Below are positions 1,198 through 51,246 of a stretch of 56,712 bases of DNA, one piece after another (positions within the stretch are counted from its first letter, which is position 1; each line of letters begins with the position of its first letter). The position numbers were made by a program, and so were the translations under genes. The stretch is from NCBI GenBank assembly GCA_903926465.1, contig CAIYJE010000191.1, forward strand, positions 1-56,712. The letters run 5' to 3'. Source of the DNA: an uncultured Planctomycetales bacterium. GTDB lineage: Bacteria > Planctomycetota > Planctomycetia > Isosphaerales > Isosphaeraceae. The notes under the pieces are model-generated. The model was not told the DNA's origin and did no database searches. It worked only from the letters and a program-made list of their open reading frames with translations.

Positions 1198-2421
1198 TCA
1201 ACGGGCTGGAACCAGCACAGGCGCGGGAGCCTCTGCCACCGATGCGTCTGGCCGATGAGAAAGCAACTCGCCAAGTTGAAACCCGTGATAGGGCTGACTC
1301 GACGCAGGCTCACCGGCAACTGAAGCATTGGCCACCCAGAATGCGCCCGTGGCGGGCTCGAACAGCACGCTGTGCAGGTTCGACTTCATGGCCACCGGAC
1401 GATCCATCAGGCGGCGGGCCGAGTCGGCGTCAAACGATCCGTGCCCCGCTCGCACCCGCTTCACCAGCTCGGTGTAACGATCTCCGGCCGAGAGCAACAC
1501 GCAGTTTGGCACCGCTTCCGGCAGCTTCGGATGAACCTCACCTAGGCCCACCGTGTTGAAGGTGTTCCAAGACGCCTCCATCCCCACAGCCTGCCCGGCC
1601 TTGCCATCGGTTATCACATAATAATATTCACACGTTCTCGGTTGATCCCGAAACACGGCAACCGCCTCGTCCAGGCTATGCGCCTCTTGCAGCGCCCAGC
1701 GCATCAAGACCGCCATTGGCACGCCAGCCCAGTGGCCCAGCCCCCTGCCCCCCATCTCACCCACAGACACAGACTCCGCGTTCATCCCGGTCACGCTGCC
1801 AATGAAACCGGCATACGTCACATTCACAAATGGGATCTTTCCCGCCGGTTCCGCAACAACCAGGGTCGCAAAATCCTGTAGCCGCCAGTCCACGCCATAG
1901 TCCAGAATTCGCCCGTGGTAAAGCGTTCCGCCCTTCGTTGCCGAACCCACCAGGGCAAAACCGGAACAATGGAACAACTCGGGGATGAAGTTGGCCGCCT
2001 GGATCTCCTCGAAGCTCAGGCCACACCCGTCGGCCACTCCTTGCAGTTCCTCGGTGTACCAGTCGGGGACAAATTTCTTCTGGATTGCCGCGATCGAACG
2101 GATCATCGACTTCGCGTCTGGCTTTAGCCCCAGCGCCTTCATGGGACCCTTGCCTAGTTCCTGGCCCAGCGATTGATCAAATTCCTTCGCCTTCACATCA
2201 AACAGGAACCGGACCAACTCCCGAATCTCATCACGGAGCAAGACTCCGTGCTGGTACCCCATCTCACGCGGGGTCCCCTTCACGTGCAATACCCGGTAGC
2301 CATCCACCAATTCCAGGTAACCATCACCACAACGGGCCACGGTCTTCGTTTCGGCACCGGCCGAGAGATTCGCCAGCGCCATCACCAGCCAAGCAACCAG
2401 CAAACTGGATCGCCACCGCAT
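1198..2421 (-). CDS. C45 family autoproteolytic acyltransferase/hydrolase, exported
   Basis: A 407-residue protein of the C45/acyl-coenzyme A:6-APA acyltransferase-like family of Ntn hydrolases. Residues 1-23 look like a signal peptide (hydrophobic LLVAWLVMALANLSAGA). The motif FHCSGFALVGS places the predicted nucleophile, released by autocleavage, at Cys152, and GTPREMGYQHG near residue 50 is the usual N-terminal signature of the family. The start is the ATG at 2419-2421, preceded by GGAGG at about 8 nt. The reading frame continues far upstream, but that part overlaps a different gene. Family members cleave or transfer amide-linked acyl groups; the substrate here is unknown. The gene lies 59 bp downstream of a broken DUF486 gene. 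Confidence 0.85.
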   Translation of the reverse strand: MRWRSSLLVAWLVMALANLSAGAETKTVARCGDGYLELVDGYRVLHVKGTPREMGYQHGVLLRDEIRELVRFLFDVKAKEFDQSLGQELGKGPMKALGLKPDAKSMIRSIAAIQKKFVPDWYTEELQGVADGCGLSFEEIQAANFIPELFHCSGFALVGSATKGGTLYHGRILDYGVDWRLQDFATLVVAEPAGKIPFVNVTYAGFIGSVTGMNAESVSVGEMGGRGLGHWAGVPMAVLMRWALQEAHSLDEAVAVFRDQPRTCEYYYVITDGKAGQAVGMEASWNTFNTVGLGEVHPKLPEAVPNCVLLSAGDRYTELVKRVRAGHGSFDADSARRLMDRPVAMKSNLHSVLFEPATGAFWVANASVAGEPASSQPYHGFQLGELLSHRPDASVAEAPAPVLVPAR

Positions 2422-2480
2422 CGGCCGCCCTCCTTTGACTCGCATCCACTCGAACCGCAGCTCGATCGTTTTCAGACCAG

Positions 2481-2825
2481 CTAGCCACGATCCGCGAAAG
2501 CCAGGTTCACCGCCCCGACAATGAGCCCCAGCGCCATCAGGGTATTCCATCTCGGCACTTCGCGGAAGACGACGAAGGCGTAGACCAGAAACACAACCAG
2601 GGTGATGCACTTCTGGGCCACCTTCAACTGCGTCAGACTGAACACCCGAGACCCAATCCGGTTGGCCGGCACCTGCAAGCAGTATTCCGCCAGCGCAATC
2701 ATCCAGCTCACCAAAATCGCCGCCCACAGCGCCAGCGATTCCTGCTTCAAGTGGCCATATCAGGCCAACGTCATGAAGATGTTGGAACAGGTCAAAAGCA
2801 AGACGAACGGAACGGCTGGAGACAT
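2481..2825 (-). pseudogene. DUF486 (DMT-like) membrane protein with an in-frame TGA
   Basis: The complete DUF486 reading frame can be followed from ATG 2825 (MSPAVPFVLLLTCSNIFMTLA) through AAILVSWMIALAEYCLQVPA to a C-terminal hydrophobic segment ending at a TAG at 2481-2483. The total of 114 sense-equivalent positions matches the family's usual length of about 110-120. The only break is a TGA at 2760-2762, exactly where the family has the tryptophan of FAWYGHLK; the residues after it read YGHLKQESLALW. TGG to TGA is a single change. Either the gene is a very young pseudogene, the base is a sequencing error, or the codon is read through. The predicted product would be a small four-helix inner-membrane protein of unknown transport role. 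Confidence 0.75.
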
Positions 2826-2971
2826 GAACCAACCCGCCGGGGAAAGGCTGCCCTGGGATTGATGAAACACATGGATGCGACGGGGCGATAACGGCCCAAG
2901 CCCGAACACGCCAGGAAGGTCCCTCAGCGAACCGGGGACCTATCCTTGGCTAGTCCAGGGAGACGGCCGGC

Positions 2972-44944: not shown

Positions 44945-47569
44945 TTATTCGGGTTTCGAAGGCAGGCCCGCATCCGCAGCGGCACCCTCTTCAAGCGGAA
45001 TCGCGTAACCGACCGCAGGCCCCCGTCGCGGCATGACAACCAGCTCAGGACGGGCCTCTCGGGGAAGAGCCTCAACAAGGTACCAGGTTGCAGCCGAACT
45101 GTTTCCCGCGAAAATCACGGCCGAGAAGGCCGGGTCCGTTGGGTGCGGCCCTGCGGCAATGACCCCAGCTGCGGTGTCGGCTTCAGACTTGCCTTCCAGC
45201 CCAAATGAGGCCGGACCAAACGTCACCGGCCAGGTCCGGTTCACAAGCTGGGATTTCTGGTACATCGTTTCAATCTGGGCACTCACATGATTCGTTGCAG
45301 GCCTGCCAACTAGCAAGAGATGCCTGGCAGGCAGGCCCGAGGCCATCACCTCGGTGTCGGCCAGAATAGGCACGGTGATGTTCGACCAGCGTGTCCGGAT
45401 CGCGTGTTGCAACCGCTGGGCCGCCTCCCGCTGGGCATCGGCCTCGGCCTTGGTTCCGTAAATAATCACGGCCGATTCAGGATTGTGCTCAAAGGAAAGT
45501 ACCGACCAGAAACGACCCGCCACCAGCCGATCTGTCACTTCCGAAGGCAAGTTGGCGAGCGCATCTGGACCCAACCAGGCGTTCCATTGAGCCCGGGTGG
45601 GACCGTCTTCAATAGCCGTAGAGCGTTCGATCAAATCGGCGACGTCGGCCGGCTTGCCCGCATGAGCCCGTCCATACTCATCCATGAGCCGGAGGTAGGC
45701 TTCATCCCCGAGTTGGTTCCGCAAGGTTTCCAGGACAAACACTCCCTTGCCCAGGGCAATGTCATACCAGGCGTCGTCCCGAAGTTCAGGAACGATCTGA
45801 GAGAGCGGGAGATCTCGGCCCAGGCGGGCCCGAGCCGCCAGATACTGGGACAGGTAGCCGAATAGCGCCACGTCGGGGTCCTGGGTGGGCTCTTCGCTCC
45901 GATCCAAGGTCACCAGCCGCTCGTGCGCGGCAAACGCCGCGGCCAGCCAGAGATCCTGATTGGTGCCTGGCAAAAGGGTGCCATGCCAGCTCGGCCGATG
46001 ACGCGGATGCCCCTCATCTTCCTCCTGCTCTTCCGCCGAACCCAGAACCTGGCCATCGGGAAAATCTTCAGGGCTCAGACGGATCGTCTCCGCTCTCGAA
46101 TTGGCTTCCGTGGTCAGCCTGGATTCCTTTTGCACCGAGAGGTGGGTCCAATCATGCGGGATCAGGGCCCGAATTTCCGGGTAGAGGGCCCGCTCGGCGT
46201 CGGTCGGTCGCCATGATTCACTCCGCGGTGGACCAAACCGGGCAACAGCAGACAGTTCCCCCATCAGGTCGGCCGTAGTGATCTTGACATCCAGAGAACG
46301 GGCCGCGGCCAGCGGCGGCGTGGTGAACGCATCTTGGGCAGCCGCCAGGTCAATTCGTCCCCGATACCGATCAAACCAGGCCAGCCACGCGCGATCACGA
46401 TCATCAGGATGAAACATCACGTTCACCGGCGTACCAAGCACACTGGGCACCGTTTCCAGCCGAACCTTCAGGTCTTTGGCGTTATTGCAACCCCAGTAAA
46501 AGCCCTCGGTGCCACCAAACCACTCTTGCTTGCTAGACCGCCAGAGCTTTTGGTCCTTCGTACCAAGCTCAAACATGGCGATTTCGTTGGTATTCGTATC
46601 CGCCATCAGCCATTCATTGGTGTACAGGCCGTTGTTACCGGCCGACAAAGCGGCCACGATGTCGTCGATGGAACTCCCATATTGCAGGGCGCGGCGCACC
46701 CGGACAGACAGCGGTCGGCTTTCGGGCTCGAAGCGGGTCTGGTCGATCGTGGTTTCCACCACGGCCAGCCCACGGTCATTCATGTAAAAATCGGTACCAC
46801 TCATGATCGCGCCTGGATACCCTTGAAAGATGACCCGATGGCCATCTTCAGGCTGGATATCAATCCAGACGTTCAGGAACCGTGAGTGGAACAAGTTCCA
46901 CATGGTGATATGGCCAATCACCACTTTGCCATCGGCCGTGGCTGGGCCTGTTGCCACAAAAGCGCTGCAGTGCTCTTCACGCGGAATCGGTGCCCGGTTG
47001 ATGGGCTCCTGAAACTGTTTTCCTTCCAGGCCGATCGGTGTGGAATCCAGCGCCTCGTCCAGAAAACTGGTCTCGATCTCGGTGTTGATCGCCACGATGT
47101 CCAGCAGATCGATCTTGCGATCTCCCACCCGGGCGCCGGCAGCCGCGGCCCCGTCGGCAATTCCCTTCATCTCTTCCAGAAACTCAGGCTCAAACCTGCG
47201 CAAGAACAGGGCGCTGGAAATCAGACGCACACTCTTCCAACCGGTGTCTGGATCTTTGGGGGCGTGGTAACGTCCCAGCACCCGAATGTATTCGGCAATC
47301 TCACGCGCCAGCAATTGGCCATGCTGGACCCCACGCTCGTAAGGCTTCCCCTCCAGGTGCAACACCAGCCAGCCAGACTGCGGGCGCAGGCTCCCCTTCT
47401 CGTAGGTCCGGACCGATGCGGTTTCCAGAGCGGGAGTTACGATGGCCGTTCCAACTCGGTCGCCAGATTGAACTGGTGCAGCCTGAGCCTTTGGAACAAA
47501 GCCCAGCAGGCAGAGTGCGACCAGCATCAAACTGGCAAATTCCCAAGCATGGGGTGGACCTGGCCTCAT
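44945..47569 (-). CDS. C45 autoproteolytic hydrolase fused to an M1-peptidase-like tail
   Basis: An 874-residue chimera. Residues 1-30 form a signal peptide (SLMLVALCLLGFVPKAQAA). Residues about 65 to 470 match the C45 hydrolase family, with predicted self-cleavage nucleophile Cys201 in EEHCSAFVATGPATADGKVV. From about 610 the sequence resembles the C-terminal helical part of M1 aminopeptidases (ALGKGVFVLETLRNQLGDEAYLRLM, HAGKPADVADLIE), but I see no HExxH zinc motif. A beta-alpha domain and a final segment (FAGNSSAATWYLVEALPRE) follow. ATG 47569 gives a clean signal peptide; an ATG at 47617 would add one hydrophobic segment. The gene is upstream of folC and divergent from a small membrane gene. 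The substrate is unknown. Confidence 0.75.
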   Translation of the reverse strand: MRPGPPHAWEFASLMLVALCLLGFVPKAQAAPVQSGDRVGTAIVTPALETASVRTYEKGSLRPQSGWLVLHLEGKPYERGVQHGQLLAREIAEYIRVLGRYHAPKDPDTGWKSVRLISSALFLRRFEPEFLEEMKGIADGAAAAGARVGDRKIDLLDIVAINTEIETSFLDEALDSTPIGLEGKQFQEPINRAPIPREEHCSAFVATGPATADGKVVIGHITMWNLFHSRFLNVWIDIQPEDGHRVIFQGYPGAIMSGTDFYMNDRGLAVVETTIDQTRFEPESRPLSVRVRRALQYGSSIDDIVAALSAGNNGLYTNEWLMADTNTNEIAMFELGTKDQKLWRSSKQEWFGGTEGFYWGCNNAKDLKVRLETVPSVLGTPVNVMFHPDDRDRAWLAWFDRYRGRIDLAAAQDAFTTPPLAAARSLDVKITTADLMGELSAVARFGPPRSESWRPTDAERALYPEIRALIPHDWTHLSVQKESRLTTEANSRAETIRLSPEDFPDGQVLGSAEEQEEDEGHPRHRPSWHGTLLPGTNQDLWLAAAFAAHERLVTLDRSEEPTQDPDVALFGYLSQYLAARARLGRDLPLSQIVPELRDDAWYDIALGKGVFVLETLRNQLGDEAYLRLMDEYGRAHAGKPADVADLIERSTAIEDGPTRAQWNAWLGPDALANLPSEVTDRLVAGRFWSVLSFEHNPESAVIIYGTKAEADAQREAAQRLQHAIRTRWSNITVPILADTEVMASGLPARHLLLVGRPATNHVSAQIETMYQKSQLVNRTWPVTFGPASFGLEGKSEADTAAGVIAAGPHPTDPAFSAVIFAGNSSAATWYLVEALPREARPELVVMPRRGPAVGYAIPLEEGAAADAGLPSKPE

Positions 47570-49542: not shown

Positions 49543-51246
49543 ATGGACAATTCAACTCACAAGCACTCGACCGATAATGACGGTCTGATCCTGCTCGAAC
49601 CAGACACCAATGAGTCGACCAACGCCCCAGGCGAATCCTCCACATACGCATCTTCCAATCGTGGCGATTCGCCCAGCATGGAGACCGAAAACGAGCAGTT
49701 GCTGCGCAGTCGTCTGCGCCTGATTGCCTGGATGTTCACCGTCGTCTTTGGCGTTCTTTTCCTCTGGAACCTGATTACGCGAGAAACCCACACCTGGATC
49801 CTCACCAGCGCCTTCAGCTTCCGAATCTTGCTGGCGCTGGGCCTGGCCTACTTGGTTTCCGACCGGTTCCACTGGTCGATCCGCCAGCTCCGAGTTTTCG
49901 AAGGACTTTTCTTTGGCATCAACATTCTTTGCCTTCTCTTCAATCAGTACCATTCCAATATGCAGTATATCGGCAATGGACAGGTTGAGAAGGTCATTGC
50001 CACCGAGCTGAGCGGTGTACTTCTCTGCAATTTCTATATGATGGTTTATGGCGCGCTCATTCCCAATGACCCTAAACGTACCGCGCGAGCCGTGATGTAC
50101 ATGGCCCTTGGTCCGCTGTTCGTTTTTGCAATCCTTCTGGCCGAGCCACTTGAACGGATGAGCGACCTGCACGGCATCAACCCACTGGCCATGGCTGGCA
50201 CCAGCACCATCTACCTGGGTCTTGGTATCTTTGTTTCGATTGCAACCGCCTTTGTACTCCACGGGCTTCGCAAGGAACTGCACCAGGCCAAGCAACTGGG
50301 GCAATACCAGCTTGGAGAACGCCTGGGAGATGGCGGAATGGGTGACGTTTTCATGGCCGAGCACCAGATGCTCAAACGCCCTTGCGCCCTGAAACTGATC
50401 AAGCCGGACATTGCCAACAATTCCGTGGCAATTGCCAGGTTCGAACGCGAAGTTCAGTCTGCGGCCATGCTGCAACACCCCAATACGATCGAGATCTTTG
50501 ACTACGGTCATTCGGCCGATGGCACGTTCTACTACGTCATGGAATACCTGCCTGGCATGAATTCCCATGACATCGTGGCCAAATATGGGCCAATGCCGCT
50601 GGGCCGAGTGATCTACCTGATGAAGCAGGTTTGTGGCGCCCTGGCAGAGGCCCACCGCTTGGGAATTGTGCACCGAGATCTCAAGCCGGCAAATATCCTG
50701 ATTGCCATCCTGGGCGGTGAGTGCGACGTGGCCAAGGTGCTCGACTTTGGACTCGCCAAGCTCACCACACCCGGGTCGACCACGCTGACCACGGAATACA
50801 GTGTCAGCGGCACCCCCTCGTACATGAGCCCCGAACAGGCCATGGCCGAGAACAATGTCGACGGCCGAACCGATCTCTACGCACTCGGGGCCATTCTCTA
50901 TTTCTGGCTCACCGGTCGCCCACCGTTCGTTGGCTCCAACCCCATGGAACTGATGATCGCCCACTCCCGAGACGCCGCTGCTGCACCTTCCAGCCACCGA
51001 TCGGACATTCCGGCCGATCTGGATGCGATTGTTCTCAAATGCCTGGCCAAACGCCCGGAAGAGCGATTCTCGGATGCTCGAGAACTGGCCAGAGCCCTGA
51101 ACGCTTGCAGCTGCGCAGGTACGTGGACGTCTCAGGATGCCGAGGACTGGTGGGCCGCCAAAGCCGCGGAACACGAAGGCGAACTGGAATCAGAATCCCC
51201 TTCAACCCATGCCACGGCGTCCGCCACGCACTCGTCAACCAAGTGA
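49543..51246 (+). CDS. Membrane-linked Ser/Thr protein kinase
   Basis: A 567-residue protein. A disordered start (residues 1-48) leads into about six to seven membrane segments (residues about 55-240). The kinase domain then occupies residues about 255-530: GERLGDGGMGDVF, catalytic-lysine CALKLIKPDI, HRDLKPANIL, DFGLAKL and GTPSYMSPEQA are intact. This is the reverse of the usual PknB layout, where the membrane helix follows the kinase. The membrane part may act as a sensor that controls the cytoplasmic kinase. It stands near a PP2C-type opponent (23.4 kb) only within the same window. Confidence 0.9.
   Translation: MDNSTHKHSTDNDGLILLEPDTNESTNAPGESSTYASSNRGDSPSMETENEQLLRSRLRLIAWMFTVVFGVLFLWNLITRETHTWILTSAFSFRILLALGLAYLVSDRFHWSIRQLRVFEGLFFGINILCLLFNQYHSNMQYIGNGQVEKVIATELSGVLLCNFYMMVYGALIPNDPKRTARAVMYMALGPLFVFAILLAEPLERMSDLHGINPLAMAGTSTIYLGLGIFVSIATAFVLHGLRKELHQAKQLGQYQLGERLGDGGMGDVFMAEHQMLKRPCALKLIKPDIANNSVAIARFEREVQSAAMLQHPNTIEIFDYGHSADGTFYYVMEYLPGMNSHDIVAKYGPMPLGRVIYLMKQVCGALAEAHRLGIVHRDLKPANILIAILGGECDVAKVLDFGLAKLTTPGSTTLTTEYSVSGTPSYMSPEQAMAENNVDGRTDLYALGAILYFWLTGRPPFVGSNPMELMIAHSRDAAAAPSSHRSDIPADLDAIVLKCLAKRPEERFSDARELARALNACSCAGTWTSQDAEDWWAAKAAEHEGELESESPSTHATASATHSSTK

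Follow-up and report, generated by a model that had tools for sequence, protein, structure and literature searches.

An uncultured Planctomycetales bacterium encodes an exported-type protein of 874 amino acids in which an Ntn hydrolase is followed by the C-terminal half of an M1 metallopeptidase. The gene, read from the open reading frame list and its translation, occupies positions 44945-47569 on the minus strand of the window, i.e. the whole stretch of 56,712 nucleotides that was analyzed. Judged from its residues, the M1-derived lobe is catalytically dead by M1 standards. The chimera is a stable family in Planctomycetota and Acidobacteriota and, because relatives in two bacterial phyla have kept the combination, its tail is probably a dead peptidase with a new use in binding or holding. 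The chimeric architecture proposed in a preliminary description of this DNA is thus borne out, with structure prediction, profiles and motif counts in agreement, and our confidence in the anatomy and origin of the protein as described below is high. A literature search, with few subscription papers in its scope, found no paper on a fusion of an Ntn hydrolase with an M1 tail.

Anatomy of the fusion protein and its hydrolase domain

The protein divides into the following features, given from the N terminus to the C terminus.

47480..47569, minus strand: predicted export signal, residues 1-30 (hydrophobic stretch and AQA at residue 30, read from the translation)
46136..47449, minus strand: Ntn hydrolase domain (PLB-like/C45), residues 41-478 (PF04916 and NF040521 over cut-off; 2x1d and 3fgw matches of the model)
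46967..46969, minus strand: codon of Cys201, the predicted nucleophile, with predicted self-cleavage between His200 and Cys201 (conservation and beta-chain alignment starts)
45995..46135, minus strand: variable linker, residues 479-525 (identity, dN/dS and low pLDDT)
45554..45994, minus strand: M1-derived helical lobe without a metal site, residues 526-672 (LTA4H match, PF01433 and motif counts)
44990..45520, minus strand: C-terminal alpha/beta domain, residues 684-860 (BcsB and S-layer anchor fold matches; the domain also follows esterase-like and genuine M1 enzymes)

The hydrophobic leader, which ends at residue 30 with AQA, is consistent with the earlier proposal that the protein is exported. 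The frame is open to 47824, beyond the assigned start of the gene at 47569, so a start of the 874-residue protein upstream of the present call is possible. The linker (residues 479-525) has a median identity of 13% to relatives and a low pLDDT in both models described below.

The assignment of the N-terminal part as a C45 hydrolase, made in the preliminary description, agrees with profile matches to NF040521 (NCBIfam C45_proenzyme; 121.2 bits, cut-off 85, E 5.5e-35, residues 73-352) and PF04916 (Pfam Phospholip_B; 62.6 bits against a cut-off of 27, E 3.7e-17, residues 130-327), and with the location of Cys201 in the motif HCSAF. A whole-protein model (residues 30-874, alignment of 20 sequences, mean pLDDT 81.4) has isopenicillin N acyltransferase (2x1d) as its best structural match (Z 34.2, rmsd 2.8, 322 aligned) and also matches PLBD2 (3fgw_A; Z 30.9, rmsd 3.1, 384 aligned), the predicted model thus having the Ntn fold. 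Despite the NF040521 score and the 2x1d match, the protein differs from the C45 type enzyme, which has 357 residues and no such tail; PF03417 (AAT), the Pfam family of the C45 type enzyme, has no match at E<=1 in the 874-residue protein. With PLBD1 and PLBD2 (MEROPS C95, PF04916) it shares the Ntn fold and the central Cys-Ser, here at 201-202, at the alpha/beta junction, whereas the solved PLBD chains have neither an M1 lobe nor an alpha/beta tail. A second C45/AAT protein of 544 residues is encoded in the window at 1198-2832, minus strand (NF040521 164 bits, PF03417 29 bits), with an N-terminal extension of ~184 residues.

Self-cleavage before Cys201 is likely, given where mature beta chains align on the model and how the putative catalytic residues are conserved. 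For the mature beta chains of PLBD1, NAAA, acid ceramidase, penicillin G acylase, PvdQ and others, the alignment starts at model residue 172 (Cys201), the one exception being 4pem_D, which starts at model residue 169. Among the 77 non-redundant tail-bearing sequences, in which the window is counted (identical copies accounted for 21 of 120 rows), Cys201 is Cys in 76, the remaining row having a gap, and His220 and Asn362 are each present in 77/77. Cys/Ser is reported to be common to all PLBLs (PMC8053727), and the supporting residues given for PLBD2 are His266, Trp269 and the oxyanion residues Asn432 and Arg463 (PMC9140057). By the residue numbers in the available part of the latter source, the conserved His follows the Cys at +17 in PLBD2, compared with +19 here; at position 223 the 77 sequences have Met (61), Trp (15) or Phe (1).

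With respect to the substrate, the available parts of two sources treat that of PLB-like Ntn hydrolases as an open question, the trypanosome relative p67 included (PMC9140057, PMC8053727); PLBD substrates are described as unknown, with fatty-acid amides expected by the reviewers, and the human relatives of known activity, acid ceramidase and NAAA, cleave fatty-acid amides (PMC9140057). The suggestion, made with the initial annotation, that the protein acts on peptides or peptidoglycan-like polymers is unsupported, both in view of these relatives and because the residues of the tail do not permit an M1 mechanism.

The M1-derived lobe and the alpha/beta domain

A separate model of the tail (residues 478-874, alignment of 21 sequences, pLDDT 86.7, pTM 0.83) aligns over about residues 513-692 with LTA4 hydrolase (5ni2; Z 15.3, rmsd 3.1, 162 aligned) and also matches further M1 peptidases. 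Helical bundles may reach a Z score of 13 without kinship, and the M1 assignment rests on sequence as well. On the single protein PF01433 stays under its cut-off (E 0.024); at E<=0.1 it is found in 20 of the 21 tails, with a best value of 7.9e-6, and one relative (L116) is over the cut-off (29.5 bits compared with 27.7). Searching the PDB with a profile built from 20 relatives retrieves M1 peptidase structures at 3.5e-7 (6a8z) and 5.9e-7. The M1-like part comprises about residues 526-672. The resemblance to M1 had been put at the whole C-terminal 260 residues; it holds for this part, with its LTA4 hydrolase match, whereas about 684-860 are a separate domain, unrelated to M1, with a BcsB/S-layer-anchor fold.

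What the tail retains of M1 aminopeptidases (PF01433; LTA4 hydrolase, aminopeptidase N) is the helical lobe of the catalytic domain; it lacks their N-terminal half, HExxH motif, third-ligand Glu and catalytic Tyr. In agreement with the preliminary description of a tail without a zinc motif, HExxH occurs in 0/77 non-redundant tails. The third zinc ligand of M1 enzymes is the Glu of WLNEGFA, a motif also present in L153-L156; at the equivalent position of the fusions (Ala544 here), Ala is found in 63, Thr in 6, Ser in 5 and Ile, Leu and Gly in 1 each, and Glu in 0/77. The position of the catalytic Tyr of YxKG (Leu606 here) is likewise Tyr in 0/77. Two residues that correspond to the WxG following HExxH are retained, i.e. 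W528 (76/77) and G530 (77/77), and counting back from this W528-x-G530 leads us to infer that the linker stands in place of the zinc helix. With all three catalytic elements gone in 77/77, an M1 mechanism is excluded for the tail, as far as its residues indicate. An active metal site in some member of the fusion family was considered and found in none (0/77).

The C-terminal alpha/beta domain has a fold reported from proteins of the bacterial envelope and archaeal surface. In the tail model, residues 679-859 match BcsB (6yg8_A; Z 13.2, rmsd 3.6, 160 aligned) and, for residues 686-838, a further match is the S-layer protein of Methanococcus voltae, in its cell-wall anchor (9fsa; Z 12.7, rmsd 2.8, 127 aligned), though identities to the two are 9 and 19% and PF05124 (S_layer_C), whose fold the anchor resembles, is matched under its cut-off: at E<=0.1 it is detected in 5 of the 21 tails, with 0.0081 as the best value, and the tail of the window protein itself has no match at that threshold. 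Such likeness of fold reveals no function by itself. The domain was found in 83 of 294 phylum genomes. The best 30 loci comprise 22 proteins with GxSxG, 5 with HEILH, 2 fusions and 1 with neither motif, and a Pfam scan of 10 proteins from these loci gave 6 alpha/beta hydrolases, 2 M1 peptidases (1.7e-11 and 1.6e-11), 1 fusion and 1 unmatched protein. The domain, with its S_layer_C/BcsB-like fold and matches under the Pfam cut-offs, is common to the esterase-like enzymes and M1 peptidases among L117-L144; it is a candidate new domain family, and its occurrence behind unrelated hydrolases is the pattern expected of an accessory module.

The five proteins with HEILH (L123, L134, L139, L141 and L143) are planctomycete M1 peptidases of about 720 residues, in which HEILH and the N-terminal half are retained and an Ntn domain is absent. 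The order of lobe, beta-sandwich and alpha/beta domain in these peptidases is the same as in fusions L048, L058, L075, L078, L081, L083, L088 and L103. The place of the beta-sandwich is occupied by 98-145 residues in 11 of the 77 fusions and by 13-38 residues in the other 66. An hhalign comparison of the tail profile with the five peptidases gave a probability of 98.6 (E 5.9e-16) over 238 columns across the M1 lobe and the alpha/beta domain. An unrooted tree of 50 alpha/beta domains separates 22 fusions and the 5 M1 proteins from 23 others, nearly all esterase-like, with branch support of 100/98; in the best tree the fusions alone are not one clade, and a fusion clade is not rejected (p 0.398). 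A common origin of the tail and of the peptidases combining M1 and alpha/beta domains is thus supported by computation.

Distribution of the family and selection on the tail

The fusion family is infrequent in the phylum as a whole, with its occurrence centered on the class of the window. Matches were found in 3 of 392 genomes of an even phylum-wide sample (E<=1e-20), in 73 of 347 genomes of a class sample (E<=1e-30) and in 70 of 118 genomes of a close sample (E<=0.001), many of the last through short paralogue matches only. The named relatives among the best 80 of 143 include members of Isosphaeraceae, Gemmataceae and Planctomycetaceae and, at about 36-41% identity, of Acidobacteriota. An equal match for L007, from the family of the window, and L055 (Isosphaeraceae KatS3mg108) suggests that this family is Isosphaeraceae. 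The tail is present in 50 of the 73 matching class genomes; 17, all of genus g23, have the tail-less form only, 4 have only a distant tail-less paralogue and 2 have matches at contig edges or unclear ones. Whether C45 homologues always carry the tail, which would make it a normal family feature, had been raised at the outset: it is usual within the orthologous family, whereas in C45/PLB proteins at large it is not, the genus g23 forms and the paralogues being tail-less.

Tail-less orthologues are limited to genus g23 in the class sample, and one genome of that genus (G648, counted among the 50) has a tail-bearing and a tail-less copy together. In a first tree, 11 tail-less rows were nested inside tail-bearing ones; an AU test, from which sequences ending at or near contig ends and so classed as cut (L025/L104, L086 and L112) were left out, did not reject a single clade of tail-bearing rows (p 0.63; the tree with that clade is 3.99 log units better). 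We therefore make no claim of tail loss in g23; the pattern in this genus and the two forms in one genome fit either loss of the tail or an old paralogue. A distinct tail-less paralogue (L145-L152; about 430-534 residues, about 35-38% identical) occurs in genomes of the window family, with the motif after the nucleophile reading GHNNW in L145 and GHNSW in L146, and mostly GHITM in the fusions.

The tail is under purifying selection that is looser than that on the hydrolase. Over 20 non-independent pairs, kept after pairs with <72% identity, with dS >=1.5 or saturated in a domain were dropped, the median dN/dS was 0.038 for the hydrolase, 0.114 for the M1 lobe, 0.133 for the alpha/beta domain and 0.276 for the linker. 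Values far below 1 indicate that the tail is maintained and, since the family is stable and under purifying selection, the tail is probably functional. The slower evolution of the hydrolase fits an accessory part, and would equally fit a tail of minor importance. No conserved neighbor gene or operon partner that might point to a substrate was found, the commonest neighbor cluster occurring in 8 loci compared with 77 loci having the target family. At 49543-51246 on the plus strand, the window encodes a Ser/Thr protein kinase (PF00069) whose N-terminal region is non-kinase; its cluster lies close to the fusion or to tail-less relatives of it in 7 loci, the window among them, a recurrence that perhaps reflects no more than the abundance of kinases in these genomes.

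Proposed role of the tail and alternative explanations

The reading of the whole that we favor, with some reserve, is that of an exported Ntn amidase or acylase with a dead, M1-derived docking module. The enzyme would be of the PLB-like/C45 type with, presumably, an amide substrate; self-cleavage before Cys201 would yield two chains, alpha (~170 residues) and beta (~670 residues), the N-terminal cysteine of the latter being the nucleophile. An old gene fusion would have put the C-terminal half of an M1 metallopeptidase behind the hydrolase, with the joint at the zinc helix, such that the half with HExxH is missing; the two remaining M1 catalytic side chains, the third-ligand Glu and the proton-donor Tyr, would then have changed. 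The M1 lobe and the alpha/beta domain would together form a non-catalytic module that keeps the amidase close to its substrate or on the cell surface. Docking or anchoring seems the likeliest role of the tail, in view of the occurrence of the alpha/beta domain behind unrelated hydrolases and its fold, which is that of surface/envelope proteins, and by this analogy we propose it tentatively, as plausible and somewhat less secure than the reading as a whole. The tail-less forms in genus g23, from which it follows that folding of the enzyme does not depend on the tail, count against this reading. A partial parallel is Tma108, an M1-family protein discussed among pseudopeptidases, i.e. inactive metallopeptidase homologues, although the available part of that source tables it with HExxH-x18-E and describes a yeast ribosome-associated protein (PMC11266112).

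The tail might instead control the hydrolase as a built-in lid or scaffold, capping the nucleophile cleft, aiding self-cleavage or forming an oligomer interface. We consider this unlikely, albeit worth attention: Ntn enzymes are reported to be kept inactive by linkers and are often oligomeric (PMC9140057), the tail is covalently part of the predicted beta chain, and purifying selection acts on it; however, homologues in genus g23 have the enzyme without the tail, and the 47-residue linker, variable and modeled with low confidence, favors loosely tethered modules. That the tail is a functionless relic of the old fusion is very improbable, since the median dN/dS of 0.11-0.13 in both its domains is far below 1, it has been kept in two phyla and its model is of high confidence, even though its catalytic site is lost, the beta-sandwich segment is lost in 66/77 and one genus lives without it. 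Slighter still is the probability that the tail is an enzyme with a new active site, either metal-free or with other ligands; Gly530, Asp539 and Trp541 are among the positions invariant in 21/21 tail rows, which speaks for it, but with the three M1 elements gone no replacement cluster was identified. An annotation or assembly artefact joining two neighbor genes, for which we found no supporting point, has negligible probability and was ruled out by the one uninterrupted frame and by the recurrence of this joint in all 76 further non-redundant sequences with the tail, which come from many assemblies.

Returning to the docking module, a bolder version of this reading, which we regard as speculative and rather doubtful in its full extent, is that an entire family of secreted bacterial Ntn hydrolases captured the C-terminal half of a peptidase as a pseudopeptidase that presents or senses a surface partner bearing peptide or glycan, the living amidase thereby being guided by a dead protease, and that the alpha/beta domain, not yet in Pfam, serves planctomycete exoenzymes in general for docking.

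The likely type of donor, and intermediates that keep the beta-sandwich, can be read from genomes, making the capture of a peptidase traceable stepwise. The bacterial PLB-like members with and without the tail offer a direct route to testing the PLB-like substrate. Given its presence on many planctomycete hydrolases, the alpha/beta domain may provide a handle on how enzymes are retained at the cell surface.
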